NCBI RefSeq assembly: GCF_963664135.1
Contig: NZ_OY760905.1
Coordinates: forward strand, 2,754,736-2,818,735
Length of the DNA stretch: 64,000 nucleotides
Source: an uncultured Acetobacterium sp.
Lineage (GTDB): Bacteria > Bacillota > Clostridia > Eubacteriales > Eubacteriaceae
Reading direction: 5' to 3'
Each line of letters opens with the position of its first letter. Within the stretch, counting starts at the first letter, position 1. This document shows, piece by piece, positions 15,423-57,352 of this stretch. Under the pieces are notes generated by a model, which was not told the origin of the DNA, did not search any database, and was given only the letters and a program-made list of their open reading frames with translations. The position numbers and the translations under genes are program-made.

Positions 15423-15912
15423 CATCATCCTCTATTTCGATTGTTTTTTCGGTTTCATAGAGATCATTAAAATCAGGATCCAGGCCGAAGCGCACATTTT
15501 TAGCCATGCGCTCAAGTTCCCGGAATTTCAACTGATCCAGAGAGCCCTGACAAACACCGTCAAAATATTTTTTCATATAACCGATAAGGTCATCATCACT
15601 CATTAAGTCCAGGGTTTCATTTTTGAAATAATAAAATATTTCAACCAGTTCATTTAGAAATTCAGCGTAGCGATATTGTGAAATATAAGGGGTATCGGCA
15701 AATACCAGGATTATTTTTTCAATGATGCCGCCACCAAACTCGATTCGGCCAACATTCCTGAGGGAATAAGAACGGGTTTCAATCAGCTCCAGGGCTTGTT
15801 CTTCGGACAATACCAACGAATATTGTTCGGTAATCTTATTACATAACATGACTTCCGAGACTGCCTGTTTTTCCATGAGAAAATTATCAAACAGCATAAG
15901 ATCAAATGACAT
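15415..15912 (-). CDS. Uncharacterised protein (possibly DUF6323 family)
   Basis: A 165-residue acidic, helical protein with a very acidic C-terminus. No known motif is visible. The start is well supported by AAGGAGGTAACCCG before the ATG. It is the first gene of a two-gene minus-strand operon and overlaps the downstream gene. The small size, acidity and pairing suggest a regulatory or adaptor partner, but that is speculation. A promoter reading the opposite way lies 50 bp upstream. Confidence 0.6.
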   Translation of the reverse strand: MSFDLMLFDNFLMEKQAVSEVMLCNKITEQYSLVLSEEQALELIETRSYSLRNVGRIEFGGGIIEKIILVFADTPYISQYRYAEFLNELVEIFYYFKNETLDLMSDDDLIGYMKKYFDGVCQGSLDQLKFRELERMAKNVRFGLDPDFNDLYETEKTIEIEDDDE

Positions 15913-15962
15913 CGGGTTACCTCCTTGAAACTATTAAATAAAGTACAAAAAAGAATTTCATA

Positions 15963-15991
15963 TTGACAATAAGACGAATATGTGGTACAAT
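15963..15991 (+). promoter_or_regulatory. Strong sigma-A promoter upstream of the mgtA remnant
   Basis: A consensus TTGACA (15963-15968), 17-base spacer and TACAAT (15986-15991) point toward the mgtA pseudogene. The predicted start is near 15998. Confidence 0.8.
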
Positions 15992-15997
15992 TTATTT

Positions 15998-16116
15998 GTA
16001 AATTACTAAAATAGGTTATTTATGCGTATGTTTTTTATTGTATCACAGATAATTGAATAAATCAATCATTAAAAATTGGAAGCAGGTGTTGTTTAAGTGA
16101 CAACATCTGCTTTTTT
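15998..16116 (+). ncRNA. Short leader or small RNA ending in a terminator, upstream of mgtA pseudogene
   Basis: Between a consensus promoter and a strong terminator lies about 118 nt with only a tiny possible ORF (from the ATG at 16022, about a dozen codons). It is either the attenuated leader that once controlled mgtA or an independent small RNA. The sequence lacks the conserved elements I would expect of the M-box Mg2+ riboswitch and is shorter than that class. Its upkeep while the ATPase has decayed is notable. Confidence 0.45.
16081..16116 (+). terminator. Strong terminator or attenuator in front of mgtA remnant
   Basis: AGCAGGTGTTGT (16081-16092) pairs with ACAACATCTGCT (16100-16111), 12 bp with one G-U, followed by six T residues. 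Confidence 0.88.
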
Positions 16117-16214
16117 GTCGTTCTGATTTCTTTCGCCATATCAGGGTAGATAAATAAGGCAACGAAAAAGTCTAAATCAGTTAGGATCAAAAAATCAACT
16201 GGAGGTAGATGTCA

Positions 16215-18160: not shown

Positions 18161-18267
18161 TTTCTTAATAGAATCTTTATCTCTCAGTCAATTTTTGATA
18201 TGCCAAATTTACTAATATATCTATATAATAAAGTCACAAGATAAAGCTTTATTAAGGAGGAGAAAAG

Positions 18268-18657
18268 ATGAGTGATTACCAGAATGTTTTTGAAGAATCC
18301 ATCGATCTGGCAAAAAAAGCATTAGAGGAAGGAGATTATATTCTGGCAGAAGAAAAAATCAAAAAAGCCATGAATGGAAATCCTCATTCACCAATTAGCC
18401 ATAACCTATATGGTATTTTAGAAGAATTGTTAAAGGAAGATAATTTAGCACACAAGCATTATCGGGCGGCCTATGCTCTGGACCCGACTTACAAACCGGC
18501 AATTAGGAATCTGGAAAGAATTGCGGCTTTTGATGCCAGAAAAAATAAGATGCCCATTGATTTTGGCGATGAACCGGTGGAAGAGGAAGAAGATTTATAT
18601 ATTATTGAATATGATAAAAATCATGTTGGGCATTTGCGAAAAAAAGAAGGGAAGTGA
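18268..18657 (+). CDS. Small TPR protein heading the kdp operon
   Basis: A 129-residue soluble protein with about two tetratricopeptide-like helical repeats (roughly 5-90) and an acidic tail. AAGGAGG precedes the ATG, and a TATAAT-like -10 lies at 18224-18229 without a good -35, as expected for a KdpE-activated promoter. kdpF starts 6 bp after its stop, so it is very probably co-transcribed with kdpFABCDE. It is not part of the classical Kdp complex; a scaffold or assembly role is possible but untested. Confidence 0.7.
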   Translation: MSDYQNVFEESIDLAKKALEEGDYILAEEKIKKAMNGNPHSPISHNLYGILEELLKEDNLAHKHYRAAYALDPTYKPAIRNLERIAAFDARKNKMPIDFGDEPVEEEEDLYIIEYDKNHVGHLRKKEGK

Positions 18658-18663
18658 CAATCG

Positions 18664-18753
18664 ATGGGGATTGTTTTAATCATTTCGGGTTTGGTAGCAT
18701 TGGCTTTATTGGTCTATCTTGTTTTGGTCTTGTTTAAGGGGGAAGAATTATGA
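18664..18753 (+). CDS. kdpF: K+-transporting ATPase subunit KdpF
   Basis: A 29-residue single hydrophobic helix (from [16 protein letters not shown]) ending KGEEL, of the size and position of KdpF, the peptide that stabilises the KdpABC complex. It starts 6 bp after the TPR gene and its TGA overlaps the kdpA ATG (ATGA), the same arrangement as in other kdpFABC operons. It is easily missed because of its length. Confidence 0.85.
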
Positions 18754-20438
18754 GCTTTATTTTAATTCAGGATATTATCTTTCTGATCGTGCTGGTGGCA
18801 CTGTCAATTCCCCTTGGTAATTATATTTATCGGGTAATGAGTGGTCAAACGGTGTTTTTATCCCGTGTGATCAATCCGATTGAGAATGGTTTGTATAAAT
18901 TAATGGGAATTGTAAGTGAAGATGAGATGAGTCCGAAAAAATATGCAGTAGCTGTTCTTATTTTCAGCAGCATCGGATTCATCTTCGTTTTTGCCATTCA
19001 AATGCTTCAAAATATCTTACCGCTCAACCCAGAGAATTTTCAACCGCTGAGCTGGGATCTGGCTTTTAATACGGCAGCCAGTTTTGTTTCAAATACCAAT
19101 TGGCAAGCCTATTCTGGAGAGCTAAGCTTATCCTATTTCACTCAGGCGGTGGGCTTAGGGGTTCAGAATTTTTTATCGGCCGCAACTGGGATTGCCGTTG
19201 TCTTTGCCTTAACCAGAGGGTTTACGGCTACTAAAAAGACAACAATTGGAAGTTTTTGGAAAGATTTGATTAGAATGACACTCTATGTGTTGATTCCCTT
19301 ATCACTATTTCTGGCGCTAATACTTGTTTCGCAAGGAGTCGTTCAATCATTGGGGCCTTACCGAGAAATTAGCACCCTTCAAGATGGTTTGGTCCAGACG
19401 GTGCCGTTAGGACAAGCCGCCAGCCAAATTGCCATTAAACAGCTGGGTACCAATGGCGGGGGTTTTTTTGGATTGAACTCAGCATTTCCACTTGAAAATC
19501 CTACCGCACTATCCAATTTATTACAGCTTCTATCAATTTTATTGATTCCGGCATCCCTTTGTATTTCTTTTGGAAAAGCTGTTAAAGACAGTAAACAGGG
19601 CCGGGCTATTTATGCCGCCATGCTGATTCTATTTGTGATATCATTAACTATTTTAACCTATAGCGAGCACTATCTTGCCCCTGCTTTTCAAGGCGTAATG
19701 GCATCTGGTAATATGGAAGGCAAAGAAATTATTCATGGTATTGGCACCTCCGCGTTATGGGGCACTGCTACTACAGCGGCGTCGAATGGCTCGGTGAATG
19801 CCATGCTTGACAGTTTTACGCCATTGGGGGGATTGATTCTGATGTTCCTGATGCAGCTTGGGGAAGTTGTTTTTGGAGGCGTGGGCAGCGGATTGTATGG
19901 GATGGTTGCTTTTGTGATCCTGACAGTGTTTATTGCCGGGCTGATGGTCGGTCGAACCCCAGAATATTTAGGGAAAAAAATTGAACCCTTTGATATGAAA
20001 ATGGTCTGTCTGATTGTGCTGGTACCACCACTTGTGACTCTATTTGGGACGGCAGCTGCAGTTATGATGCCCCAGGCAGGGACGTGGTTGACGAATATGG
20101 GTGCCCATGGCTTTTCAGAAATACTCTATGCCTTTACTTCAATGGGAAATAACAACGGCAGTGCCTTTGGTGGGTTTTTGGCCAATACGTTATTTACGAA
20201 TGTGATTGGTGGAATCATGATGTTATTTGTGCGTTTTATACCGTTAGTGGCGGTCATCTTTCTGGCCGGGAATTTATCCAATAAAAAGACCGTTGCGGCA
20301 AGTGATGGAACGCTCTCAACAAGTGATCTGCTATTTGTAGGGTTGCTGATCGCCATTGTCTTATTAATCGGAGCACTCAGCTTTTTGCCGGCACTGGCAT
20401 TGGGGCCGATTGCCGATTTTTTTACTAACATCAAGTGA
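18750..20438 (+). CDS. kdpA: K+-transporting ATPase subunit A (KdpA)
   Basis: The K+-selective channel-like subunit of the high-affinity KdpFABC pump in the cytoplasmic membrane. The 562 residues have about ten transmembrane helices and the selectivity-filter loops: [11 protein letters not shown]-like ([17 protein letters not shown]), [30 protein letters not shown] and [12 protein letters not shown]. Length and motifs match the family. It overlaps kdpF by 4 bp; the ribosome binding site is AGGGGGAAG. kdpB follows 10 bp later. Confidence 0.97.
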
Positions 20439-20448
20439 GGTGAGAGCA

Positions 20449-22506
20449 GTGAAAGAAAATGATTTAAATAAAAATATTTTCATCGATGCAATTCAGCAAT
20501 CGTTTGTCAAATTGTCACCACGGGTTCAAATTAAAAATCCGGTGATGTTTGTGGTTTATATTGGGGCAATCATGACGACGATGCTCTTTTTTCTAAATTT
20601 TGCTGCAATAAAAGACGAGAATGCCGGTTACACCTTGGCGATTGCTTTAATTCTCTGGTTTACGGTGCTGTTTGCAAATTTTGCAGAATCGATAGCAGAA
20701 GGCAGGGGTCGGGCTCAGGCAGATAGTTTGCGCAGTGCGCGAAAAGATGTCAAAGCTAAAAAACTGAAATCAGCTGCCAATGTGGAAGATTATACCGAAA
20801 TAGTATCAAATCTTTTGAAAAAGGGAGATATTGTTTATGTAAAATCAGGCGAGCAGATTCCGATGGACGGTGATGTCATTGATGGCGCTGCTTCGGTGGA
20901 TGAAAGCGCGATTACCGGGGAATCAGCGCCGGTCATCCGCGAGTCTGGCGGCGATCGTAGTGCCGTCACAGGTGGAACCACGTTGCTATCGGATTGGCTT
21001 GTCATCCGAATAACCGCCGAAGCAGGAGAGAGCTTTCTGGATAAAATGATTGCAATGGTAGAGGGCGCCTCCCGAAAGAAAACCCCCAATGAGATTGCTC
21101 TGCAAATACTGCTGGTAACCCTCACCATTATTTTTCTGGTGGTAACCGCGACATTATTACCGTTTTCGAGCTTTGCCAGCAATCAGGCCGGTCAGGGGGC
21201 GGCAATTTCCATCACCAATGTGATCGCCCTGTTGGTATGCCTGGCACCCACTACCATCGGTGCGCTCTTGTCATCGATTGGGATTGCTGGGATGAGCCGC
21301 TTGAATCAGGCTAACGTGCTGGCGATGAGCGGTAGAGCCATTGAAGCAGCCGGTGATGTGGACGTGCTGCTGCTGGATAAAACCGGCACAATTACCCTTG
21401 GTAACCGCCAGGCAAGCGTCTTTATTCCGGTAACGGGAGTGACCGAGAAGGAACTGGCCGATGCGGCGCAACTGTCTTCACTGGCCGACGAAACCGCGGA
21501 GGGCCGCAGTATTGTTGTGCTGGCAAAAGAACGCTTTGATATCAGAGGAAGAGATCTTGAAAAGCTTGATGCAACCTTTGTCGCGTTTACCGCAAAAACG
21601 CGGATGAGTGGCATCGACTATCAGGGAAATGAGATTCGCAAAGGGGCGGCCGAAGCAGTAAAGAACTTAGTTCTCGAAAAAGGCGGGGACTACCCCGAAG
21701 AATGCAATGCGATTGTCATGCAAGTGGCAAATGATGGCGGAACACCCCTTGTGGTTGTAAAAAACAATCTCGTATTAGGGGTTATCTATCTTAAAGATAT
21801 TGTCAAGAACGGTGTTAAGGAACGGTTTGAAGATTTGCGAAAAATGGGGATTAAGACCATTATGATCACGGGCGATAATCCGATGACCGCCGCCGCTATT
21901 GCCGCCGAAGCCGGAGTGGATGACTTTCTGGCAGAAGCGACGCCCGAAGCAAAATTGATACTGATTCGAGATTACCAAGCCAAAGGACATCTGGTAGCAA
22001 TGACTGGTGATGGAACCAATGATGCCCCGGCCCTTGCCCAGGCAGATGTGGCAGTGGCCATGAATACCGGGACCCAGGCTGCCAAGGAAGCCGGAAATAT
22101 GGTTGATCTGGATTCGAATCCAACTAAATTGATCGACATTGTTCGAATCGGAAAGCAGCTTTTGATGACCAGAGGATCATTAACAACCTTTAGCGTTGCC
22201 AATGACGTGGCAAAATACTTTGCGATTATTCCGGTTTTGTTTTTTGGTATTTATCCCCAATTGATGGCACTTAATTTTATGGGCCTGACCAGTGCAAAAA
22301 GCGCCATATTATCGGCGATCATCTATAATGCCTTAATCATCATCGCTTTAATTCCATTGGCATTAAAAGGTGTTAAGTATCATGAAATGCCAGCCGGAAA
22401 ATTATTAAAAAGAAATATGCTGATTTATGGCTTGGGTGGTCTGGTGGCGCCTTTTGTGGCAATTAAGCTGATTGATATCGTGCTGACTGTCTGCGGTTTG
22501 GCGTGA
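20449..22506 (+). CDS. kdpB: K+-transporting P-type ATPase subunit B (KdpB)
   Basis: The ATP-hydrolysing subunit of the Kdp pump, 685 residues. The phosphorylated Asp310 lies in [13 protein letters not shown], with [12 protein letters not shown] in the actuator domain and [17 protein letters not shown] in the hinge, all intact. The GTG start at 20449 follows GAGGTGAGAG; an ATG 39 bases upstream lies inside kdpA. Functional residues appear complete, in contrast to the broken mgtA just upstream in the window. Confidence 0.97.
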
Positions 22507-37657: not shown

Positions 37658-38917
37658 ATGAAAATAGGATATGCATGTTTAACAGTGGGTGTGCCGAATA
37701 CAGAATTGAAGACTTGCTTACTTAAAAATGCGTCCGATGAAAAACTGACAGAATTGATCAAACATAACTTGAATTCCTTAGATAATATGATTGAATATAA
37801 TATCAATAATAACATCGAACTTTTCAGAATCAGTTCATCGCTGATTCCCTTTGCTTCAAATTCAGTTAACCAGATTGTCTGGTGGGAAGTTTTTGAAAAG
37901 CAGCTAAAAAAAATCGGTCGAAAGATTATCAAAAGTGGCATGCGGGTTTCGATGCATCCGGGTCAATATACGGTTTTAAATTCAGCGGACGAAAATGTGG
38001 TAACGAATGCCATTGCCGATTTAAATTATCACGCCTGCCTGTTGGATAGTCTGGGGGTGGGACCCGCACATAAAATCATTCTTCATGTGGGTGGGGTTTA
38101 TAATGACAAAAAACAGGCGATTAAGCGTTTTATAAAAAATTATGATCGTTTGGAAGAAACCGTAAAAAAAAGACTGGTCATTGAAAACGATGATAAATCC
38201 TATACCATCAGTGATGTTCTGGAGATTGGGCGGTTACTTGAAATGCCGGTTATCTTTGATAATCTTCATCATCGTGTGAATCCCTGCAATGGAAATAAGA
38301 GTGATTTCGATTGGATTGATGAATGCCAGACAACATGGAAAACCGCTGATGGCGATCAAAAGATTCATTATTCCCAACAGAATCCTGATAAAAAAAGCGG
38401 TTCACATTCAAAGACCATTAAGATTACCGAATTTATGGACTATTATCAAACCTTGGAAAGCCGCAAGCTTGACATCATGCTTGAAGTTAAAGATAAGAAT
38501 CTATCCGCTATTAAGTGCATTAATTGCACTACTCGAAAAAAAGAAATCAATCAGCTGGAGCATGAGTGGAGCAAGTATAAATATGCCGTTCTGGAAAGAT
38601 CCCCGCTGGATTATCTGGAGATTCGAAAACTACTTAACAATAAAGACAGTTATCCCTGCATTGAGTTTTATAATCTCATCGAAAGCTCATTTCAAAAAGA
38701 TACGACGATTGGGAATTCAATCAATGTAGCCCAGCATATTTGGGGATATTTTAGAACCATTGCCCTACCGAGTGAAAAGAAGTATTTTTTAAAACTCCTG
38801 GACCGCTATGAAAAAGGCGAAACTTCGATAAAAAAAATCAAGAAGAACTTATGGAAAATGACTGTTAAATATGATCAGACCTATCTGCTGGACTCCTACT
38901 ATTATGTCATTATTTAG
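37658..38917 (+). CDS. uvsE: UV damage endonuclease UvsE/UVDE
   Basis: A 419-residue TIM-barrel endonuclease that nicks DNA 5' of UV photoproducts. Family motifs are present: the N-terminal KIGYACLTVG, FRISSSLIPFAS, SMHPGQYTVLNS with a metal-ligand His, IILHVGGVYNDK, RLVIENDDKSY, FDNLHHRVNP and HYSQQNPDKKSGSHS. The length exceeds the compact Thermus form, with an extra C-terminal helical region (about 310-419). GAGGAAAGAAGG precedes the ATG. No repair neighbours are seen; it stands alone among signalling genes. Confidence 0.92.
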   Translation: MKIGYACLTVGVPNTELKTCLLKNASDEKLTELIKHNLNSLDNMIEYNINNNIELFRISSSLIPFASNSVNQIVWWEVFEKQLKKIGRKIIKSGMRVSMHPGQYTVLNSADENVVTNAIADLNYHACLLDSLGVGPAHKIILHVGGVYNDKKQAIKRFIKNYDRLEETVKKRLVIENDDKSYTISDVLEIGRLLEMPVIFDNLHHRVNPCNGNKSDFDWIDECQTTWKTADGDQKIHYSQQNPDKKSGSHSKTIKITEFMDYYQTLESRKLDIMLEVKDKNLSAIKCINCTTRKKEINQLEHEWSKYKYAVLERSPLDYLEIRKLLNNKDSYPCIEFYNLIESSFQKDTTIGNSINVAQHIWGYFRTIALPSEKKYFLKLLDRYEKGETSIKKIKKNLWKMTVKYDQTYLLDSYYYVII

Positions 38918-48388: not shown

Positions 48389-48958
48389 ATGAAAAAAACA
48401 CAGATCAAAACAATCAATGAAGCCGTACAGGCTTTGATCCAGGGAAATAAAAATTACGTGAATGCTCAAAAAACTGGAAATATTTCACAGGAGTTGAATC
48501 CATTATCAGCAGAAGATGGGCAACAGCCCTATGCGGTGATCGTAACCTGCTCGGATTCGCGAGTACCCTCGGAGTATATTTTTTCGGCCGGGGCGGGTGA
48601 GCTCTTTGTAATTCGAACGGCTGGGCATGTGATTGGGAATTTTGAATTAGGTAGCATTGAATATGGGGTCAAGTATCTTGGGGCAAAAGTGGTTTTCGTG
48701 CTTGGACATAATCATTGCGGCGCGGTTAAGGCGGCTATGGGCAGTCATGGCAAAGGTTATGTTCAAAAAATATTAGATGAGATTATCCCGGTCATTACCG
48801 GGGAAGATGATGTTGAAAGGTGTGAAAAGCTGAACATCGAAAACAGTATCCGGCGAATCATGGAAAGCGAAATGATCAGTGAATATGTCGATGAAGGCCG
48901 AGTGAAAGTTATTTCTGGGAAATATGATATCGAAAGCGGGATGGTCGAATTTTTTTAA
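48389..48958 (+). CDS. Beta-carbonic anhydrase
   Basis: A 189-residue beta-class enzyme interconverting CO2 and bicarbonate. Zinc ligands and the Asp-Arg dyad appear in VTCSDSRVPSEYIF, and the second ligand set in LGHNHCGAVKAAM; IRTAGHVIG lies between. Size and motifs match the prokaryotic clade. Useful for a CO2-fixing acetogen. GGGAAATAACG precedes the ATG. The gene ends against the serpin remnant. Confidence 0.93.
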   Translation: MKKTQIKTINEAVQALIQGNKNYVNAQKTGNISQELNPLSAEDGQQPYAVIVTCSDSRVPSEYIFSAGAGELFVIRTAGHVIGNFELGSIEYGVKYLGAKVVFVLGHNHCGAVKAAMGSHGKGYVQKILDEIIPVITGEDDVERCEKLNIENSIRRIMESEMISEYVDEGRVKVISGKYDIESGMVEFF

Positions 48959-49156: not shown

Positions 49157-49207
49157 TTGACAAATGTAGATATTGAGCTATGATGAATAGAGACTACCTT
49201 ACGGTAG
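49157..49207 (+). promoter_or_regulatory. Promoter and TetR-type operator of the hydrogenase-like operon
   Basis: TTGACA (49157-49162), 16-base spacer and TATGAT (49179-49184) form a promoter. CTACC-TTAC-GGTAG (49194-49207), a palindrome, covers the expected transcription start, 23 bases before the TetR gene. This is the usual arrangement for TetR autorepression, extended here to the whole operon. Confidence 0.65.
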
Positions 49208-49229
49208 GTAGGATGAGGAGGGTAAGCCT

Positions 49230-49778
49230 GTGGAAACAAAAAAAAAGATAATGAATTCGGCATTTAGATTGTTTGCCGAAAAAGGAAATGAATTTTCATT
49301 GACAGAAGTAGCCAATGAAGTTGGGATAAAAAAAGCATCAATTTATGCTCATTTTAATAGCAAAGAGGTGTTGCTTTATGAAGTGATCGATCAGGAAATT
49401 TACGAGTACTTTTTTGAGATTGACGAACAAAGCCGGGATTTAAAAAGCACCTTCGATATGATCTTAAATTATTATAGTAAATCCAAGTCAAAGCGCTACT
49501 TTTGGAAAAGGCTGTTATTATTTCCACCGATAGCCTTTGAAACAACCTTGATCCAGAAAATAAATAAATTAACCGAGCAGCGCTATGGCATTATCAAAGA
49601 TTTAATCAAATCCGAAATGGAAAAGGGCATCATCAGAAATCAGGATCCGGAAACAGTTTTATATTCATTTCTAGCAATGATTCATGGATTGGTGTCAATC
49701 ACAATTATTTATGAAGCTGAGGATTTGAATATCAATCAAGATGATATTTGGCAGAATTTCTGGAATGGCATAAGATAA
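49230..49778 (+). CDS. TetR/AcrR-family transcriptional repressor
   Basis: A 182-residue regulator with an N-terminal helix-turn-helix (about 5-50: IMNSAFRLFAEKG, LTEVANEVGIKKASIYAHF, NSKEVLLYEVI) and a helical ligand-binding C-domain. GTG start after GAGGAGGG. The next gene (hyfB-like) begins 12 bp after its stop, so it is the first gene of the hydrogenase-like operon and probably controls it through the palindrome at 49194-49207. The inducing ligand is unknown. Confidence 0.9.
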   Translation: METKKKIMNSAFRLFAEKGNEFSLTEVANEVGIKKASIYAHFNSKEVLLYEVIDQEIYEYFFEIDEQSRDLKSTFDMILNYYSKSKSKRYFWKRLLLFPPIAFETTLIQKINKLTEQRYGIIKDLIKSEMEKGIIRNQDPETVLYSFLAMIHGLVSITIIYEAEDLNINQDDIWQNFWNGIR

Positions 49779-49790
49779 GGAGCCCTTAAC

Positions 49791-51851
49791 ATGATGGATG
49801 TACTTAATACGATCGGCGGAGAGAATAATTTGTTTTTAGCCGCGATGCTACTTTATTTGGTCGCCGCAATCATATCACTTGTTTTGATGAAACACCATAA
49901 ATTGTGTAACATAGTATCAAATAGTGTTTGCATTGCAGCCGCTTTTTTGGGAGCAGCCGCTTCGCTTTTCAAAATTTTTTCAGGTACGACAAAGACCACT
50001 AGTTTCATTCTGCACTCACCAATTCCGCAGCTTTCCATGGACATAAAAATTGACAGCCTCTCGGCCTTCTTTGTCCTGTGCTTATCAATCATTGTGCTGG
50101 CTGTTTCTATTTATTCCATCGGCTATATTTCCCACTATTATGGAAAAAGAAATGTTGGATTTTTTAATTTTTTATATGCTGCATTTATTTTAGCTATGTT
50201 CCTGGTGATGATATCCGGAAATGCCATTTTTTTCTATATTGCCTGGGAGGCGATGTCGATTATTTCATACTTTTTGGTTATCTTCGAGTCGGAACACGAA
50301 GAAAATCAGAGAGCCGGAAAATTGTATCTGATCATGACCCATTTAGGCACCGCCTTTTTATTAATCGGTTTTATGATGATGTACAGCTATACCGGGTCGT
50401 TTGATCTGTTTGGAAGTTCGGCAGCGATACCGGAAGCGGCCAAAAATTTAATGTTTGTCTTTTTCCTGATTGGATTTGGAACCAAAGCGGGGGTGGTGCC
50501 TCTCCATATCTGGCTGCCTTACGCCCATCCCGCGGCACCCAGTAATGTATCGGCACTGATGTCCGGGATTATGATTAAAACAGCTATCTATGGAATGATC
50601 CGTTTTATGCTTTGCTATTTGCAGATCCAAGCCAGCTGGTGGGGCGTGGTGATCTTGTGCATTGGGATTGTCTCTGCGGTGCTGGGGGTTGCCTATGCAT
50701 TAATGGAGCATAATATTAAACGGCTCCTGGCCTTTCACAGTGTCGAGAATATTGGCATTATTCTGATTGGTATAGGGGTGTCTTTTATTGCCTTTGCCCA
50801 AAACAACGAATTTTTAGGCGGGTTGGCTCTGATCGCGGCGCTTCTGCATACCTTTAACCATACCCTCTTCAAAGGTGGCTTATTTCTGGGGGCGGGATCG
50901 ATACAATATGCTACCCACACGAAAGATATTGAAAAATTGGGCGGACTGATTAAAAAAATGCCTATCACAGCGCTGCTGGTGCTGTGCTTTTCGCTGGCAA
51001 TCTCGGCCATTGTTCCGTTTAATGGATTTATCAGTGAGTGGATGATTTACCAATCACTGTTCTTAAATATTGGTTTGGGAATGCCGGCCATGAATATTTT
51101 ATCGATTTTATCGATCGCGGCCCTGGCATTGTCCGGCGCTTTGGCGGCGGCGTGTTTCGTCAAGCTGTTCGGGATTTCTTTTCTCGGGCTGCCCCGGAGT
51201 GAACAGGCCCAAAAGGCCAAAGAGGTTCCCGTGACGATGAATATCGGAATGGGAATACTGGCGGTCTTCTGCCTTCTGATCGGTCTGTTTCCGGTGTTTT
51301 TCATCAACATCGTCGATCAAGTTGTTTTCAGTCTGGTCGGGTCATCGATCCACGACAACCTGCAGGGCGGATTCTTTGAGATGTTTTCACCACTGATTGT
51401 ATCCAGCAACAGTATTGCCCCGGTTGAAATATTAATTGTTCTGGTAGTTGCCATTATCGCGGCGCTGATTATCATCAGACTCATCGCCGGGAAATATGTG
51501 GAAAGAAAATATGGCACCTGGGATTGTGGTTTTGAAGCCCTTAATTCAAGAATGCAGTACAGTGCCACCGGATTTTCCAAACCGATTCGAATTGTGTTAA
51601 GTATTTTATATCGACCCGGCCGAAAAGTGGTAGTGGAGGAGGGGGCCTCCGATTATTTCCCCAACTCGATAAAATATAAGGTCTGGACGGAGCCAATTTT
51701 TGAAAAATATCTTTACGATCCGGCCCTGCGGCTGGCCACCAATTTTTCACTTAAAGTCATCCGTATGGTCCAGACTGGCAGTGTTCATGCTTACCTGATC
51801 TACATTTTCGTATCGGTGATCGCATTAATGCTCTATAACAGATTGGCATAG
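49791..51851 (+). CDS. hyfB: Hydrogenase-4-like membrane subunit B (HyfB/NuoL-type ion translocator)
   Basis: A 686-residue antiporter-like membrane subunit with about 15 helices. The proton_antipo_M motifs are clear: GTKAGVVPLHIWLPYAHP with SALMSGIMIK, and LLAFHSVENIGIILIG, containing the Lys and His/Glu residues used for ion translocation. The long C-terminus, with KYGTWDCGFE and STGFSKP-like SATGFSKPIR, is typical of HyfB/HycC. It follows tetR by 12 bp, and subunit C begins 14 bp later. It is part of a complex related to group 4 hydrogenases; coupling ion (H+ or Na+) unknown. Confidence 0.9.
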   Translation: MMDVLNTIGGENNLFLAAMLLYLVAAIISLVLMKHHKLCNIVSNSVCIAAAFLGAAASLFKIFSGTTKTTSFILHSPIPQLSMDIKIDSLSAFFVLCLSIIVLAVSIYSIGYISHYYGKRNVGFFNFLYAAFILAMFLVMISGNAIFFYIAWEAMSIISYFLVIFESEHEENQRAGKLYLIMTHLGTAFLLIGFMMMYSYTGSFDLFGSSAAIPEAAKNLMFVFFLIGFGTKAGVVPLHIWLPYAHPAAPSNVSALMSGIMIKTAIYGMIRFMLCYLQIQASWWGVVILCIGIVSAVLGVAYALMEHNIKRLLAFHSVENIGIILIGIGVSFIAFAQNNEFLGGLALIAALLHTFNHTLFKGGLFLGAGSIQYATHTKDIEKLGGLIKKMPITALLVLCFSLAISAIVPFNGFISEWMIYQSLFLNIGLGMPAMNILSILSIAALALSGALAAACFVKLFGISFLGLPRSEQAQKAKEVPVTMNIGMGILAVFCLLIGLFPVFFINIVDQVVFSLVGSSIHDNLQGGFFEMFSPLIVSSNSIAPVEILIVLVVAIIAALIIIRLIAGKYVERKYGTWDCGFEALNSRMQYSATGFSKPIRIVLSILYRPGRKVVVEEGASDYFPNSIKYKVWTEPIFEKYLYDPALRLATNFSLKVIRMVQTGSVHAYLIYIFVSVIALMLYNRLA

Positions 51852-51865
51852 GAGGAGAATCAGAC

Positions 51866-52813
51866 ATGACAGCAGCAACCTATTTTATCATTCAGCTAAT
51901 CGTCATTATTTTAGTGGCGCCATTAATCAATGGAATTATCAAAAAAGTTAAGGCCTTGTCCCAGAAAAGAAAGGGTGCTCCGCTTTTGCAAATGTATTTT
52001 GATTTGTTCAAGCTGTTAAGAAAAACAGCAGTGGTGTCGGATGTGTCCTCATGGATATCCCGGGTGACCCCTTATATTGTCTTTTCCACCGCCATCGCAG
52101 CAGCCATGATTGTCCCGGTGACGACATTAATCGAACCGCTTTGGTTTGCCGGCGACATCATTTTATTAGTTTATATTTTGGCGCTGGGCCGATTTTTTAT
52201 GATGCTGGGAGCCTTAGATACCGGGAGTACCTTTGGGGGAATGGGTGCCAGCCGGGAAGCAATGATCTCTTCACTGATTGAACCGTCGATCCTCGTGACA
52301 CTGCTGACGGTGGGGCTACTTGCCAAATCAACCGCAGTCTTCCAGATCATGGCCTTCATGCAGGGCGTTAATAATCCTTTGATTCACCCGGTTTACATCA
52401 TGGCATTTTGTGCCCTGTTTATTATCATTATTGCCGAGACGTCACGAACACCGGTGGATGATCCATCGACGCATCTTGAACTGACAATGGTTCACGAGGC
52501 CATGGTACTGGAGTATTCCGGACGAAATCTGGCCTTGATGGAGCTTGGCGCTGCGATTAAGCAATTGGTCTTTATTACCCTGCTGGTTAATATTTTCTTT
52601 CCTCATGATCAGCTGATCGGATCATCCGGCGTGGTTGCCATCGGGGTATCGCTGTTAATTTATCTGATCAAGGTCGTTTTGGCGGCAATCCTGTTCGCGA
52701 TTGCCGAGATCAGTACCGTCAAACTCAGGTTATTCAGTATTCCCAATCTGGCCGCGTTATCGTTTATCTTTGCTTTTATCGGATTTTTACAGGTTTTCGT
52801 TTTTGGAGGTTGA
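51866..52813 (+). CDS. hyfC: Hydrogenase-4-like membrane subunit C (HyfC/NuoH-type)
   Basis: A 315-residue membrane protein of the NuoH/HycD family, the subunit that joins the membrane arm to the soluble redox arm. It has about eight helices. Conserved cytoplasmic loops are RKGAPLLQMYFDLFKLLRK and ETSRTPVDDPSTHLELTMVHE, where acidic residues form part of the ion path. GGAGG precedes the ATG. The stop is at 52811-52813, 2 bp before the next ATG. Confidence 0.92.
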   Translation: MTAATYFIIQLIVIILVAPLINGIIKKVKALSQKRKGAPLLQMYFDLFKLLRKTAVVSDVSSWISRVTPYIVFSTAIAAAMIVPVTTLIEPLWFAGDIILLVYILALGRFFMMLGALDTGSTFGGMGASREAMISSLIEPSILVTLLTVGLLAKSTAVFQIMAFMQGVNNPLIHPVYIMAFCALFIIIIAETSRTPVDDPSTHLELTMVHEAMVLEYSGRNLALMELGAAIKQLVFITLLVNIFFPHDQLIGSSGVVAIGVSLLIYLIKVVLAAILFAIAEISTVKLRLFSIPNLAALSFIFAFIGFLQVFVFGG

Positions 52814-52815
52814 AA

Positions 52816-53472
52816 ATGACAAATTATCTTGATGCATTATCAGTTTTAATACTTGTCTCGGCGTTCGTTCTGATGGGTAATAAAAAAATAAAATCTTACA
52901 TTAAAACCTTTCGGCTCCAATCCGTTTTGATTGCCATTCTGACCGGAATCATGGGCATCACGAGTTTAAACGAAGGAGGACACGTTGATGTCCTGATCGT
53001 TTGCGGCGTGATTATCGGAATTAAAGTCGTCCTGATTCCCTATCTGCTGAATAAAACTTATGAAAAAGTCGCGTACAAGGTTGAAAAAGACTTTTTCTTT
53101 AATATTCCGATTCTGATTATTGGGTGTTGTTTCATTGTCGTCTTCACCCATTTTTCATTTACCACCACGACCGGAATCAATTCCGGAGTGGTGAATGCCC
53201 AGGTGGTCAATTCGGTCTCACTTGTTTTAATCGGCTTATTTTTTATGATCAGCCGAAAAAAAGCAATTGGTCAAATTATCGGATTTCTGGTGATTGAAAA
53301 CGGCATTTTTGTGACTGCGCTGTTTGCCACCCAGGGGATGCCGTTTATCGTCGACATGGGGATATTAATGGACGTCTTGGTGGCAGTGATCATCATGGGG
53401 ATTATGGTCTTCAGAATCGATGAAAAATTCGGGTCCACCGATATCAATAAGATTAAAGATTTGAGAGGATAA
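52816..53472 (+). CDS. hyfE: Hydrogenase-4-like membrane subunit E (HyfE)
   Basis: A 218-residue protein with about six to seven helices, similar in size and position to HyfE, which contains a NuoK-like domain (about 90-200, GLFFMISRKKAIGQIIGFLVIENGIF). The start is ATG 52816, spaced from GGAGG at 52805-52809; a TTG at 52810 overlaps the stop of subunit C. Subunit F begins 4 bp after the stop. Confidence 0.88.
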   Translation: MTNYLDALSVLILVSAFVLMGNKKIKSYIKTFRLQSVLIAILTGIMGITSLNEGGHVDVLIVCGVIIGIKVVLIPYLLNKTYEKVAYKVEKDFFFNIPILIIGCCFIVVFTHFSFTTTTGINSGVVNAQVVNSVSLVLIGLFFMISRKKAIGQIIGFLVIENGIFVTALFATQGMPFIVDMGILMDVLVAVIIMGIMVFRIDEKFGSTDINKIKDLRG

Positions 53473-53476
53473 AATA

Positions 53477-54949
53477 ATGGGATTTGTTTTACTGGGGATA
53501 CCAGTCGTTGCCGTGATACTATTTTTTCTTCTGAAGAGCACACCAATTCAACACGGAATCAGCATCGTCGCCACCATTGCCTTAATACTGGTCGGGGCGG
53601 TTTTAACCCGTGATGTTATGACCTTGGGGATAGTTGAATATGCTGCCCTGGGCGGGATTTTTTATCTTGATGCGTTGAGCATTATTGTACTAGACATCGT
53701 CGTCATCATTGCTTTTATGACCAGTGTTTATTCCGTTGGTTATCTGGACGAAGAATTAAAACATGGCAAGATTGATACCAATAAATTACGGGTTTATTAT
53801 ATTTTGATGTACACCTTTATTTTCATCATGCTGCTGGCGTTAACGGTTAAAAATATTGGCATCATGTGGGTCGCCATTGAAGCCACCACCTTGGCGTCAG
53901 CCTTTCTGGTCGGTTTTTACAATGGCAAGGATTCTATTGAAGCGGCCTGGAAGTATATTATTATCTGCTCCGTAGGAATTGCCATTGCCCTGCTGGGGAT
54001 CATCTTTTTACAGTTTTCATCCATCGGTGTTTTAGACAGCAGTCAATTTTTGGATTGGACCGCCATGATGAATAAGGCCACTGAATTAAATGGCTCAACA
54101 TTAAGATTGGCCTTTATCTTTATTGTGATAGGATTTGGAACCAAAGCCGGCCTTGCCCCGATGCACACCTGGCTGCCGGATGCTCACAGCCAGGCACCTT
54201 CACCAATCAGTACCTTGATGTCGGGGGTGTTGTTAAATGGCGCCATGTACGGCATCATCCGGGTGGTGGCGATCATTAACCATAGCTTTGGTAGCAGTGT
54301 TTTTGTGGGCAGAATCATGATCACTCTGGGCGTTTTGTCAGTGCTTACCGCGGCGATATTTATTTTCACCCAAAAGGATTACAAACGGCTGCTGGCTTAT
54401 TCAAGTATTGAGCATATGGGCATCATTGCGATTGCGATTGGTTTTTTTACCCCGTTGTCAATTTTTGGCGGATTACTGCATATGATCAATCACTCATTTA
54501 CCAAGTCGACGCTGTTTTTGTCTTCCGGTAATATTTTGCTGAAATATAATACCAAAGAGATTTCGAAAATTAAGGGTGTACTTAAATGTCTGCCGGTTAC
54601 CGGAACTGTTTTTCTGTTGGGTTTGTTTGCCATCGGGGGAGCGCCGCCCTTTAGTGTTTTCGCCAGTGAATTTGTCGTCATTTCAGCAATTTTTCAGGAC
54701 CATAATTTCCTGGTCGGGGGAGCCTTAATCCTGCTGTTGGCATTGATTTTCACCGGGATTGTCCTGACCATGTTTAAACTGTTTTACGGCAATATACAAC
54801 CGGAAGAAACAAGCCCAGGTGAAATAAATATTTCCGGCGTAGCCGTTATTGTGGTGCTATTGGGGATTATCACAATTACCGGTTTTTATATTCCCAATGG
54901 GTTAAAAGAGCTGATTGACCACGCGGTAAAAATAATAATTGGAGGATAG
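53477..54949 (+). CDS. hyfF: Hydrogenase-4-like membrane subunit F (HyfF/NuoN-type ion translocator)
   Basis: A 490-residue second antiporter-like subunit with about 14 helices: GTKAGLAPMHTWLPDAH, APSPISTLMSGVLLNGAMYG, and LLAYSSIEHMGIIAIAIG. It gives the complex at least two ion-translocating modules with HyfB. GAGAGG lies upstream. The frame ends inside the ribosome binding site region of the large-subunit gene. Confidence 0.92.
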   Translation: MGFVLLGIPVVAVILFFLLKSTPIQHGISIVATIALILVGAVLTRDVMTLGIVEYAALGGIFYLDALSIIVLDIVVIIAFMTSVYSVGYLDEELKHGKIDTNKLRVYYILMYTFIFIMLLALTVKNIGIMWVAIEATTLASAFLVGFYNGKDSIEAAWKYIIICSVGIAIALLGIIFLQFSSIGVLDSSQFLDWTAMMNKATELNGSTLRLAFIFIVIGFGTKAGLAPMHTWLPDAHSQAPSPISTLMSGVLLNGAMYGIIRVVAIINHSFGSSVFVGRIMITLGVLSVLTAAIFIFTQKDYKRLLAYSSIEHMGIIAIAIGFFTPLSIFGGLLHMINHSFTKSTLFLSSGNILLKYNTKEISKIKGVLKCLPVTGTVFLLGLFAIGGAPPFSVFASEFVVISAIFQDHNFLVGGALILLLALIFTGIVLTMFKLFYGNIQPEETSPGEINISGVAVIVVLLGIITITGFYIPNGLKELIDHAVKIIIGG

Positions 54950-54953
54950 ACAT

Positions 54954-56549
54954 TTGATCGATAACGAAATAAAGCTAGAAATAATTAAAAAACTAACTGA
55001 AATTTTTGCTGATGATATCATGGCAATGTTGAACGGGAAATCAAATGAACTTTATCTAACGGTTAATCCCGCAAAAATATTGGAGATTGCCAGCTATTTC
55101 AATCAGGAAATGGGTTTTCCGCTGGTTTCCATGTTTGCTAATGATGAAACTGGTTTGTGCGACCATTATGCCCTTTATTATGGTTTTGCCGATCGCGAAA
55201 AGGGATTGTTTGTAACACTGATCACCCTGATTGATCCGGCTGAACCCTTTTTTAAATCCATCGCCGGCCAGATCCATGCGGCCGCACGGTATGAACGGGA
55301 AATCAAGGATTTATTTGGGCTTACTCCGGTGGGTCACCCCAATCCGAAACGACTGGTCTTTCACAGCAACTGGCCAACAAAAACATATCCTCTGCGTAAA
55401 AGCTTTGATGTGAAAGAAAAACCGAGTTTCGCCAATGAAAAAATCACCTTCACCAAGGTGATTAGCGAGGGCGTTTACGAGATTCCGGTGGGACCGGTTC
55501 ATGCCGGGATCATCGAACCCGGCCATTTCAGATTCAGTGTGGCCGGTGAACCGATCATTAACCTTGAAGCCCAATTATATTTTGTCCATAAAGGGATTGA
55601 AAAAATGTGCGAAGGGGAAAGTATTGAAAAGTGTCTGTACGTGTCCGAACGAATCTCCGGGGATGAGAGCTTTACCAACTCAATGGCTTATTGTCAGGCG
55701 CTTGAAAAGATTGCTGGCGTAAAAATTCCCCTAAGAGCTGAATTTACCCGGGTTATTTTTGCGGAACTGGAAAGGCTGACCAGTCATCTTGGCGATCTTG
55801 GTGGAATATGTACCGACGTGGCCTATGGCTTTGCCGCCTACCAATTTACGATGATGAAAGGCTGGGCCTACAACATTGCTGATGAGCTCTGCGGGATGCG
55901 GTTTTTAAGAGGGGTCAATAAACCCGGCGGGGTCAGAAAAGAATTTGTTGCCGGTAAAGAAAAAACGGTCATTGAACAATTGAAAAAAATAAAAACAGAG
56001 CTTGAGGATACGGTGGAAATGATGAAATCAAACGGACTGTTCATTGATCGGGTTGAAAACACCGGGATTCTCAGTGAAAAGATTGCCATTGATTTAAATG
56101 CGGTGGGACCGCCGGGACGGGCCTCGGGAATCCATTATGATGTCCGAAAAGCCTTTCCAACAGAAGCCTATCAACAACTCACATTTACGATCCCAGCGCA
56201 TCATAACGGCGATGTCAATTGCCGGATGAATGTAAAAATAGAAGAGTGTTTTCAAGCCATGGATTTAATCATAGCAGCAATCGCAAAAATGCCGACGGGT
56301 AAGATCAGCGTGACGCTTGAATCAGTGGAACCGTATCAATTTGCTTTTGGCATCACTGAAGCACCACGAGGGGAAAATATCCACTGGATCATGACCGGAG
56401 AAAATAATACCATCTTCCGGTATAAAATCAGAACGCCTTCGTTTTGCAACTGGCCGGCTTTGTGCCATGCGGTTAAGGGCAATATTGTCCCGGATTTTCC
56501 GCTGATTAACAAGAGTTTCAATTTATCCTATGCCGGAAATGATTTGTAA
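54954..56549 (+). CDS. hyfG: Hydrogenase-like large subunit (NuoC-NuoD fusion) without Ni-binding cysteines
   Basis: A 531-residue fusion: N-terminal NuoC-like domain (about 1-160, with ERMEIKDLFG-like YEREIKDLFGLTPVGHP) and C-terminal NuoD/large-subunit domain. GPVHAGIIEPGHFRFSVAGE is well kept. Where [NiFe] hydrogenases have the first CxxC (RxCGxC), this protein reads SERISGDESF, with Ser235 and Glu238 in the cysteine positions. The C-terminus DFPLINKSFNLSYAGNDL has no cysteine at all, so the second CxxC is also gone. It therefore resembles energy-converting-hydrogenase-related (Ehr) subunits and complex I rather than hydrogenases. TTG start at 54954 with GGAGG at 54941-54945. No maturation genes are nearby. 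Confidence 0.9.
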   Translation: MIDNEIKLEIIKKLTEIFADDIMAMLNGKSNELYLTVNPAKILEIASYFNQEMGFPLVSMFANDETGLCDHYALYYGFADREKGLFVTLITLIDPAEPFFKSIAGQIHAAARYEREIKDLFGLTPVGHPNPKRLVFHSNWPTKTYPLRKSFDVKEKPSFANEKITFTKVISEGVYEIPVGPVHAGIIEPGHFRFSVAGEPIINLEAQLYFVHKGIEKMCEGESIEKCLYVSERISGDESFTNSMAYCQALEKIAGVKIPLRAEFTRVIFAELERLTSHLGDLGGICTDVAYGFAAYQFTMMKGWAYNIADELCGMRFLRGVNKPGGVRKEFVAGKEKTVIEQLKKIKTELEDTVEMMKSNGLFIDRVENTGILSEKIAIDLNAVGPPGRASGIHYDVRKAFPTEAYQQLTFTIPAHHNGDVNCRMNVKIEECFQAMDLIIAAIAKMPTGKISVTLESVEPYQFAFGITEAPRGENIHWIMTGENNTIFRYKIRTPSFCNWPALCHAVKGNIVPDFPLINKSFNLSYAGNDL

Positions 56550-56560
56550 GGAGGACGAAA

Positions 56561-57352
56561 ATGTTTAAAAAAATCAGAAAAATTATAAAGTACCCAAGAT
56601 TGACTCAGGACTATCCCAAACATTCCTCTATTGCAGTTCCTTTTATTGGCAAACCGGAAATTGATCAAAAAAAATGCACCCGCTGCGGGACCTGTGTGAA
56701 TCGCTGCCCATCCGGTGCGATTGTCCTAAATCGTGACAAAAATGACATTGGCATCAATTATGACGAATGCATATTTTGCGGTCTCTGCGCAGAAATTTGC
56801 CCGGCGGAAGCGGTGGCGATGACCAGTCAGTTTGAGCTGGCGGAGAAAGACCGCGACAAGCTTAGAAAGAATCCGATCATTATTGGTGAACGGACGTATC
56901 TGGACAAATCATACGAAATCATTTGCAGCGAACTGAAGGCTAATATCAACAAAACATTTGGCCGCAGTCTGCAGATCAGAGAAGTGGATGCCGGGTCATG
57001 CAATGGCTGTGACTCTGAAATTAACGCCTTGAACAACCCTTTTAACGATGTGGAACGCTTGGGAATTCATTTTGTCGCGTCCCCCCGGCACGCGGATATG
57101 CTCCTGGTGACCGGAACGGCCACTCGAAACATGCAGCTGGCCCTGGCTAAAACCTATAATGCTACCCCGGATCCCAAGCTAGTGGTGGCGGTGGGAGCCT
57201 GTGCCTGCAGCGGTGGTATCTTCAAGGATACCTATGCAACCTGCAACGGCATTGATCGCATTGCTCCGGTCGATGTTTATATTCCCGGCTGTCCCCCGAG
57301 ACCCCAAGCCATCCTGTATGGGATCTTAAAAGCATTGAACCGGATCGAATAA
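56561..57352 (+). CDS. Fused ferredoxin (NuoI-like) and small subunit (NuoB-like) of the hydrogenase-like complex
   Basis: A 263-residue fusion of two usually separate subunits (HyfH and HyfI). The N-terminal half holds two [4Fe-4S] motifs, CTRCGTCVNRCP (from Cys39) and CIFCGLCAEICP (from Cys70). The C-terminal half has the proximal-cluster cysteines in SCNGCDSE (Cys147/150), GACACSGG (Cys214/216) and PGCPPRP (Cys244). The electron wire is thus intact, although the large subunit lacks NiFe ligands. GGAGG precedes the ATG. It is the last gene of the operon. Confidence 0.92.
   Translation: MFKKIRKIIKYPRLTQDYPKHSSIAVPFIGKPEIDQKKCTRCGTCVNRCPSGAIVLNRDKNDIGINYDECIFCGLCAEICPAEAVAMTSQFELAEKDRDKLRKNPIIIGERTYLDKSYEIICSELKANINKTFGRSLQIREVDAGSCNGCDSEINALNNPFNDVERLGIHFVASPRHADMLLVTGTATRNMQLALAKTYNATPDPKLVVAVGACACSGGIFKDTYATCNGIDRIAPVDVYIPGCPPRPQAILYGILKALNRIE

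Follow-up and report, generated by a model that had tools for sequence, protein, structure and literature searches.

The six-gene operon described here encodes a new member of the energy-converting-hydrogenase-related (Ehr) family, which is established but whose reaction is not known. It lies in the window, i.e., the whole 64,000-nucleotide stretch of DNA from an uncultured Acetobacterium sp. that was analyzed. We put the probability at roughly 0.5 that its product translocates ions in a ferredoxin-linked manner and handles protons in the emptied nickel–iron pocket. Judging from the loss of Fe–S ligands in some distant members, the basic task of the Ehr family may be ion transport and not a redox reaction.

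Operon, regulator, and host

The six co-directional genes (49791–57352, + strand) have reading frames open throughout, and encode HyfB-, HyfC-, HyfE-, and HyfF-like membrane subunits, a NuoC–NuoD large subunit, and a ferredoxin/NuoB fusion, at the place and with the family assignments proposed in the initial annotation (Table 1). Residue comparison showed that E/K/K/E of both antiporter-type subunits and the acidic loop of the HyfC-like subunit are retained. The dN/dS values of the six genes against the genus relatives L119 and L122 were 0.05–0.12, with one value saturated. Against a third genus relative, L121, they were 0.06–0.10 for five genes, the HyfB gene being left out because a paralogue was matched, the L121 contig being cut. 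These values indicate purifying selection on all six genes.

Table 1. Coordinates of the features of the operon and its control region in the window
Feature	Position	Strand	Evidence
Sigma-70-type promoter (TTGACA 49157–49162, 16-bp spacer, TATGAT 49179–49184)	49157..49184	+	computed position
Probable TetR operator, palindrome CTACCTTACGGTAGGTAG, just 3' of the -10 box	49194..49211	.	conserved core
TetR-family regulator, first gene of the unit	49230..49778	+	PF00440 43 bits
HyfB-like antiporter-type subunit (EhrA-type)	49791..51851	+	NF005086 667.5 bits (cut-off 667); E/K/K/E ion-path residues kept
HyfC/NuoH-like membrane anchor	51866..52813	+	PF00146 137 bits; acidic loop residues kept
HyfE-like subunit, NuoK-type C-terminal part	52810..53472	+	NF008556 87 bits (below 136-bit cut-off); PF00420 27.1 bits
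HyfF-like antiporter-type subunit	53477..54949	+	NF005044 475 bits (below 610-bit cut-off); ion-path residues kept
NuoC–NuoD (HycE-like) large subunit without Ni ligands	54939..56549	+	536-aa ORF from TTG 54939
Glu193, equivalent of MbhL Glu21, kept	55515..55517	+	gapless alignment
Former ligand site 1, Ser240-Gly241-Asp242-Glu243 replacing C-G-A-C	55656..55667	+	alignments
Former ligand site 2, last nine residues NLSYAGNDL replacing ELCYSCxDR	56520..56546	+	alignments
Ferredoxin domain fused to NuoB-type small subunit	56561..57352	+	

The start coordinate of the initial annotation, 49157, is that of the promoter -35 box, and the TetR gene lies inside its range but is absent from it. An intact TetR homologue stands ahead of the operon in 9 of the 20 loci of the window's clade, and the 18-bp operator core is conserved in all nine of these; in the 4.08-Mb genome the operator has a single exact match. 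Judged by eye, similar -35/-10 pairs also lie in front of this gene in the other loci compared. The operon is probably under its own TetR regulator, and the combination of this gene with an operator conserved in 9/9 loci is new here. A wider regulon was rejected: further genomic sites with two mismatches showed no excess over a reversed-pattern control, and neither of the two that were inspected lies ahead of a clear gene. Genes for carbonic anhydrase, BacA, and a nitroreductase neighbor the operon; a functional link with them was dropped, as they recur in 3/20 clade loci, all of the genus. Another, unannotated neighbor family occurs in 5/20 clade loci, at differing places.

Compared with E. 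coli hydrogenase 4 (Hyf) and formate hydrogenlyase (Hyc), the cluster lacks the nickel ligands and a counterpart of HyfA/HycB or HyfD, its HyfH-like and HyfI-like parts are fused, and no HycH/I-type maturation gene is found among the 22 ORFs scanned around it. The earlier statement that neither maturation genes nor formate dehydrogenase lie nearby stands for the 22 main ORFs at 37658–63892 (Pfam); moreover, HypD (PF01924) gave no match in the whole host genome, with a positive control in E. coli. HypD is absent from 11 of 17 carrier genomes, including all five of the genus, and present in six. Similarly, MenD and MqnA/D gave nothing above cut-off in the host genome, and both are absent above cut-off from 11/17 carriers, again including all five of the genus, with a menaquinone marker in the other six. 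These exclusions therefore hold for the genus and not for every carrier. The acetogen setting suggested by the initial annotation is borne out by CODH/ACS beta and RnfC-type domains in the genome, and the latter lead us to expect reduced ferredoxin. A tight link with acetogenesis was dropped, since the CODH/ACS beta domain occurs in only 11/17 carriers. Only 5 of 19 genus genomes carry the operon, so the complex is dispensable.

Nickel site and iron–sulfur wire

The large subunit has a NuoD fold; in this comparison MBH and MBS chains lie outside the best 50 matches listed, hence it carries no inference on MBH/MBS. Its alignment with HycE of the solved E. coli FHL (7z0s_E; 301 bits) is gapless at both ligand sites, where RVCGIC and DPCYSC of HycE correspond to RISGDE and NLSYAG. 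The sister hydrogenases have RICGAC and ELCYSC at these sites; all four nickel ligands are thus gone, and both group 4 [NiFe] hydrogenase motifs, RxCGxC near the N-terminus and the C-terminal DPCxxC/ELCxxC, are missing. This agrees with the missing CxxC pairs reported at the outset (0/4 ligand cysteines), as does the last cysteine, which lies 27 residues before the C-terminus, with the reported cysteine-free last 18 residues. Residues are numbered here from TTG 54939 (536-aa ORF, P0005); Ser235 and Glu238 of the initial annotation, counted from TTG 54954, are our Ser240 and Glu243. The latter start (531 aa) is the likelier one, lying 7 bases after GGAGGA, and this arrangement is shared by L002 and L003.

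The ligand replacements are invariant in 17/17 and, for the window's clade, in 20/20 rows, which, together with the low dN/dS, speaks strongly against decay of the genes. Serine at ligands 1 and 3 is a fixed signature of the cysteine-less relatives (82/82), and Glu at ligand position 2 marks the clade (20/20 rows versus 5 of 62 other Ehr rows). His188, Glu193, and His196 are invariant in 82/82 Ehr rows, and Glu193 also in 31/31 NiFe sister rows; its MbhL equivalent, Glu21, is described as a key proton-reduction residue (PMC7684303).

Cysteine pairs elsewhere that fill the NiFe site had been named as a finding that would speak against such a complex. The large subunit has ten cysteines, five of which (C252, C291, C428, C503, and C509) are present in at least 18 of 20 clade rows, C503 in 20 and C509 in 19. 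Of these, C252, C291, and C503 are shared with 21, 28, and 18 of 31 NiFe rows, respectively, where they stand alongside the NiFe ligands, and so cannot on their own replace the latter. C428 and C509 are almost exclusive to the clade (2/31 and 0/31 NiFe rows; 0/62 other Ehr rows for both). No family-wide replacement pair was found among the 82 Ehr rows compared, but C503 and C509 may have a clade-specific role, such as lining the pocket.

As initially reported, the small-subunit and ferredoxin motifs are intact. The two-cluster ferredoxin domain has C39/42/45/49 and C70/73/76/80, the proximal cluster of the NuoB-type part has C147, C150, C214, and C244, and all 20 clade rows keep these 12 cysteines, eight in the ferredoxin domain and four at the proximal cluster. 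Aligned with MbhJ, the proximal motif GSCNGCD shows no gap; the Fe–S wire should thus end beside the pocket. Fusion of the small subunit to an intact two-cluster ferredoxin domain is found in 20/20 clade rows versus 1 of 53 other readable Ehr rows; of the 82 Ehr rows, 73 have a small subunit that can be read on the contig and 9 do not.

Family placement and cysteine-poor relatives

The Ehr layout noted initially is confirmed by the six genes, the lost ligands, and the tree, in which the large subunit falls among cysteine-less relatives. The locus has the roughly six genes, with L, S, NuoH-, HyfE-, and NuoL-like subunits, by which Ehr complexes are recognized. It shares this gene number, the HyfE-/NuoL-like subunits, and a large subunit without NiFe ligands with the Ehr complexes of Geobacter sulfurreducens (GSU0739–0745), comammox Nitrospira, Sulfobacillus, and Methylacidiphilum (ehrABCDLS) as these are described, with function called unknown, in PMC7894505, PMC10284858, PMC4378227, and PMC6688271. 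In contrast to other Ehr, the window's clade has the ferredoxin-fused small subunit, Glu at ligand position 2, and, in 9/20 loci, a TetR gene ahead. Titles of the named-species loci (8 of 80 on contigs <6.8 kb) place Ehr complexes in nitrifiers, methanotrophs, acidobacteria, candidate-phyla bacteria, and anaerobes; 25 of 55 phylum matches had no locus and were left out of the classification. Going by the titles listed, nothing usable was found in the literature on this complex in Acetobacterium.

The short-search tree needs two changes for the cysteine loss, and a tree with all 82 cysteine-less rows held together was 15 log units better (p-AU 0.741; L040 was omitted from tree and counts, being the same locus as L013). 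A single origin of the cysteine-less large subunits is not rejected by this tree comparison, which allows one clade but does not prove it. The cysteine-bearing sister group (D. ruminis EhrL type) is 38–45% identical to the window's protein and shares its PDFPLINKSF-type tail, with the same six genes in the same order in 10 of the 14 such loci compared; two further loci are truncated at contig ends. Unlike the window's protein, it has all four cysteines in 30/31 rows, and its chemistry is likely that of H2.

Loss reaches further in other Ehr members. Among the 73 readable Ehr rows, 12 have 0–1 of the four proximal cysteines (none in five rows, one in seven), versus 0/33 NiFe rows, and in 11 of these 12 loci neither strand of the retrieved DNA contains a ferredoxin motif. 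Ehr thus presents a graded series: full wire, proximal cluster only, and no full cluster. Nevertheless, the pocket residues S240, G241, D242, S530, E193, H188, and H196 are kept in 12/12 of these rows, which have 95 conserved columns versus 93.7 (sd 6.4) in other Ehr, of about 356. Ion-path residues are retained in the four such loci tested, and in four of the cysteine-poor loci a co-oriented gene for F1-ATPase beta lies upstream. Since the pocket is under equal constraint in these relatives, it need not see electrons or be a redox site. The loss of proximal cysteines with the pocket kept is novel here, though an earlier remark in the primary Ehr papers is possible; these are reportedly Coppi 2005 and Marreiros 2013. 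Among the titles listed, nothing usable was found on Ehr without Fe–S clusters.

Mechanism, alternatives, and meaning

In the reading that we favor, soluble ferredoxin would give electrons to, or take them from, the small subunit at its N-terminal two-cluster domain, and the electrons would run on to the proximal cluster, which adjoins the former NiFe pocket. The latter, presumably no longer holding a NiFe center, would handle protons through its Ser240/Asp242/Glu243/Ser530 lining and the retained His188, Glu193, and His196, and would probably bind a small polar, non-quinone ligand. Changes in the pocket could then pass via the HyfC-like subunit to the two antiporter-type subunits, which would move H+ or Na+. 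We infer ferredoxin as the partner from motifs; ion translocation, coupling, and TetR control are likewise inferences. The earlier proposal that ferredoxin oxidation could drive ion pumping, with electrons passing to some acceptor, would suit the intact wire, but an acceptor in the pocket is weakened by the 12 cysteine-poor relatives, whose equally invariant pocket residues argue against a redox reaction there.

These relatives also sustain a possible but less likely alternative, namely that Ehr complexes essentially exchange cations and protons without redox chemistry, their hydrogenase-like arm serving as a gate that binds protons, ions, or a small ligand. The window's clade would then have kept its wire only so that a ligand or the redox state of ferredoxin could gate the complex, with no substrate reduced. 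The proximal-cysteine loss seen in Ehr and in no NiFe row, the rarity of ferredoxin motifs, the preserved pocket, conserved columns, and ion path, and the upstream F1-ATPase gene all favor it, as does the pH-homeostasis role suggested for Methylacidiphilum Ehr (PMC6688271). However, 12 cluster cysteines in every clade row are more than a silent relic would keep, higher Ehr in formate-grown Geobacter (PMC7894505) and a proposed formate dehydrogenase–Ehr unit (PMC6349859) point to redox, and ferredoxin redox gating of an antiporter-type complex would be unprecedented.

A sulfane-sulfur (polysulfide) reductase like Pyrococcus MBS is improbable. MBS belongs to the same superfamily and has also lost its NiFe center, ferredoxin input would be common to both, and the host is anaerobic; yet MBS is described with a proximal-cluster motif three residues shorter, one open Fe, no MbhL E21 residue, and two NiFe cysteines kept (PMC7684303). 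In the window's complex, the motif has MBH spacing without the MBS-type shortening, Glu193 is present, and none of the four cysteines remains. Quinone reduction as in complex I or Fpo seems very improbable despite the NuoD fold and the menaquinone marker in 6/17 carriers, because Ile192 and Gly241 align with Nqo4 His38 and Tyr87, whose quinone-binding roles are given in PMC7684303, and the five genus genomes lack the markers above cut-off. Just as little credence can be given to a metalloenzyme that uses other ligands (new Cys or Ser/Asp/Glu) or a hydrogenase in decay: the retained second-sphere Glu193, His188, and His196 and the clade-specific C503 and C509 would be in favor, but no cysteine stands at the four ligand positions, one of which is Gly, HypD is absent, and constraint is strict.

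A broader and more tentative view, which we hold to be rather doubtful, is that in the Ehr branch of the complex I superfamily the NiFe pocket has become a redox-independent proton/ion gate. Some members would be pure exchangers without a complete set of redox-cofactor ligands, encoded in some bacteria next to F1-ATPase, and the window would hold the ferredoxin-linked form. For the organism, the operator and TetR gene offer a handle for finding when the acetogen switches the complex on. For the family, the graded Fe–S series from full wire to no full cluster is a clean experimental set-up: if an Ehr member without Fe–S ligands moves ions, redox chemistry would not be the defining trait of the family, and coupling of the complex I type could be studied without electrons.

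Operon organization, distribution and upstream region

The operon lies in a genome consisting of a single contig of 4,084,676 bases, and its six genes are consecutive, separated by short gaps or overlapping. The NuoC-NuoD large subunit is the sole relative of its kind in this genome (1 match), and a search for NiFeSe_Hases (PF00374) gave no match up to E 0.001. Residues of the large subunit are numbered from TTG 54939; TTG 54954 is the likelier start, and the Ser235/Glu238 of the initial annotation are obtained from it, five lower than in our numbering. The same two-TTG arrangement is found in the relative loci L002 and L003.

Features of the operon and its surroundings (window coordinates)
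Feature	Position	Strand	Remark
UvdE endonuclease domain fused to DUF1722	37658-38917		
Beta-carbonic anhydrase gene	48389-48958		Upstream of the TetR gene
Promoter TTGACA-16-TATGAT	49157-49184		Before the TetR gene
18-bp palindrome (putative operator)	49194-49211		Between promoter and TetR gene
TetR gene	49230-49778		Precedes the six genes
Six-gene operon	49791-57352	+	HyfB-like, HyfC/NuoH-like, HyfE-like, HyfF-like, NuoC-NuoD large subunit, ferredoxin/small-subunit fusion (two-cluster ferredoxin domain fused to a NuoB-type small subunit)
Start region of the large subunit	54939-54956		Two in-frame TTG; the first overlaps the GGAGGA of the second

The large subunit belongs to a clade of 20 aligned sequences (rows; SH-aLRT 97 in a short-search tree), all of which have Glu243 and Asn247. 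Gene order was compared in 20 loci (the window, 16 from other genomes and three from named species), and 16 have the six genes complete and in the same order; the exceptions are interrupted by contig ends (L121 and L039) or carry an ORF without family assignment at the HyfE place (L120 and L134). The operon occurs in 5 of 19 genomes of the genus and in at least 12 of the 398 phylum genomes sampled, not counting its own; it was not found in a second genome of the species (81% complete). The neighbourhood with the beta-carbonic anhydrase gene is common to 3 of the 20 loci, all from the genus. Genome G007 of the same genus (220 contigs) has two NuoCD-type proteins (L008 and L009) on other contigs, of 7.6 and 44 kb, which are possibly foreign to it.

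An intact TetR homologue (62–91% identity) stands ahead of the operon in nine loci, including the window, and in each of them the -10 box is separated from the start of the TetR gene by the palindrome, with core TACCT-N-ACG-N-T-W-GGTA. The palindrome is perfect across 18 bp in three of these loci, which come from one genus, and the exact operator pattern has no second match anywhere in the window's genome. In a tenth locus (L123, 15866–16052), the TetR gene is present as fragments and the palindrome is partly kept, with the Ehr operon intact behind them. Since small molecules are the usual signals of TetR proteins, expression of the complex is probably inducible, not constitutive.

Replacement of the NiFe ligands in the Ehr family

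Relatives were taken from 40 genomes of the family and 398 drawn from the phylum; the phylum sample gave 55 relatives at E ≤ 1e-60, with loci retrieved for the best 30, and the named species genomes contributed the best 80 loci among the matches listed. Among the 117 non-NuoD rows compared (E. coli HycE, HyfG and two Ech-like rows included, the duplicate L040 left out), the first Cys is missing in 82 and present in 35. Ser occupies ligand positions 1 and 3 in all 82 Cys-less (Ehr) rows and Gly position 4 in 81, while ligand 2 is variable (Thr 28, Glu 25, Ser 23, Asn 4, Met 2). An Asp directly precedes ligand 2 in 78 of the Ehr rows and in none of the 31 rows of the Cys-bearing NiFe sister group. 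A switch at ≥80% on both sides distinguishes these two groups at just eight positions, of which five lie at the two ligand motifs. The absence of both nickel-binding Cys pairs, reported in the initial annotation, is upheld, and the Ser replacements at ligands 1 and 3 are fixed in the Ehr rows. The dN/dS values of the six genes against L119 and L122, relatives of the genus, are 0.05–0.12, with high dS and one gene saturated. The ligand replacement reads as a signature, not decay.

The short-search tree, with motif columns excluded, requires two changes of Cys state; a tree constrained to keep the 82 Cys-less rows together has a likelihood better by 15 units (p-AU 0.741), so a single loss of the ligands is allowed, not proven. 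In genome G250, which is without HypD, a sister-group large subunit (L026) has Phe at ligand 3 (FELFYSC) and is perhaps a hydrogenase caught while losing its centre.

The window complex belongs to the already known Ehr family, which, according to PMC3569383, was first identified in Geobacter; the same paper describes D. ruminis EhrL as carrying the four cysteines. Lack of the ligands, lack of a known function, or both are stated in PMC10284858, PMC4378227, PMC10432482, PMC6349859 and PMC7304191. The literature search, with two primary Ehr papers outside it, yielded no account of an Ehr complex in Acetobacterium or of one without Fe-S ligands.

Ehr relatives without proximal cluster ligands

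The small subunit is readable on the contig in 73 of the 82 Ehr rows. All four proximal Cys occur with two intact ferredoxin motifs in 21 (the 20 clade rows and L075) and without an intact fused motif in 39, one of which (L043) has a separate ferredoxin motif adjoining the small subunit. The remaining rows retain three (one row), one (seven) or no (five) proximal Cys. All 33 NiFe rows have the four Cys; the fused motif is absent in 11 of them (two Ech-like) and five have one, so a missing motif by itself says little.

The 12 rows with 0–1 Cys (L063, L065, L076, L077, L078, L080, L081, L082, L091, L094, L104 and L107) come, by record title, from candidate-phyla and unassigned bins, one bin each of Thermoleophilia, Dehalococcoidales and Altiarchaeales, and a bin labelled Methanosarcina. 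Their small subunits are Oxidored_q6 in 4/4 tested (83–92 bits), with GSC changed to GS(D/T/S), GAC to GD(D/G) and GCPP to G(N/D)PP; the replacing residues are mostly Asp, Asn and Thr, and seven rows retain the second Cys. On both strands of the DNA retrieved for each locus, no ferredoxin motif was found in 11 (two loci <10 kb); L078 has one on the opposite strand. A single origin of cluster loss was not rejected (p-AU 0.379; 15 rows, three without a readable small subunit). Ion-path residues are retained in the four loci tested, with Glu or Lys at TM12. Judged from sequence, these 12 loci encode complex I-type assemblies without a complete redox cofactor site.

The pocket is equally kept: Ser240, Gly241, Asp242, Ser530, Glu193, His188 and His196 occur in 12/12 rows and Gly533 in 11. 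Columns conserved at 90% number 95 of 356; random sets of 12 rows gave 93.7 (sd 6.4) for the other Ehr and 119.4 (sd 4.7) for NiFe rows. The constraint on the pocket is therefore independent of electrons arriving via a proximal cluster.

An F1-ATPase beta gene (Pfam-confirmed) lies upstream on the same strand in L063, L077, L104 and L107. Gamma and epsilon genes are also Pfam-confirmed in L077; the remaining F1-ATPase genes, including those on the other strand in L065, were assigned by similarity clustering. The five hosts are candidate-phyla and unassigned bins. In L094 (Altiarchaeales bin), a second HyfB/C/E/F-like gene set (15823–20849) follows the first Ehr cluster on the same contig.

Candidate functions of the complex

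The window complex is probably not a hydrogenase: its large subunit has no NiFe ligand, and HypD was not found in its own genome, in any of the five genus carriers or in 11 of 17 carrier genomes, being present in the other six and in six of seven genomes having the Cys-bearing sister. A complex I-type quinone reductase is likewise improbable, as Nqo4 His38 and Tyr87 are replaced by Ile192 and Gly241; of the two routes covered, neither MenD (above cut-off) nor MqnA/D was found in the five genus genomes, and among the 17 carriers both are missing in 11 and one is present in six. Nor is the complex probably MBS-like, since its proximal-cluster motif has MBH spacing and it retains Glu193, the equivalent of MbhL Glu21; MBS, according to PMC7684303, is without this Glu and keeps two of the four Cys, whereas the window large subunit keeps none. 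A metal site built from the clade's own C503/C509 is conceivable; polysulfide, quinone and metal-enzyme readings all receive low probability.

In the antiporter-type subunits, the Glu of TM5, the Lys of TM7 and of TM8 and a Glu in TM12 are retained, as is the acidic loop of the HyfC-like subunit; the roles of these residues are those known for complex I. The genome fits an acetogen having a ferredoxin pool, with RnfC-type domains (six matches, of which three are strong) as well as CODH/ACS beta domains, in agreement with the acetogen-like setting first proposed. The cluster-less relatives favour a non-redox exchanger that is only gated by ferredoxin, a less probable reading against which stand the 12 ligands of the three small-subunit clusters, retained without exception in the 20 clade rows, and hints in the literature that other Ehr are connected with formate (PMC7894505 and PMC6349859), including more Ehr in the proteome of formate-grown Geobacter (PMC7894505). 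On these two grounds, we favour, at even odds (about 0.5), a ferredoxin-linked ion-translocating machine, in which the emptied pocket of the large subunit would handle protons and perhaps bind a small ligand.
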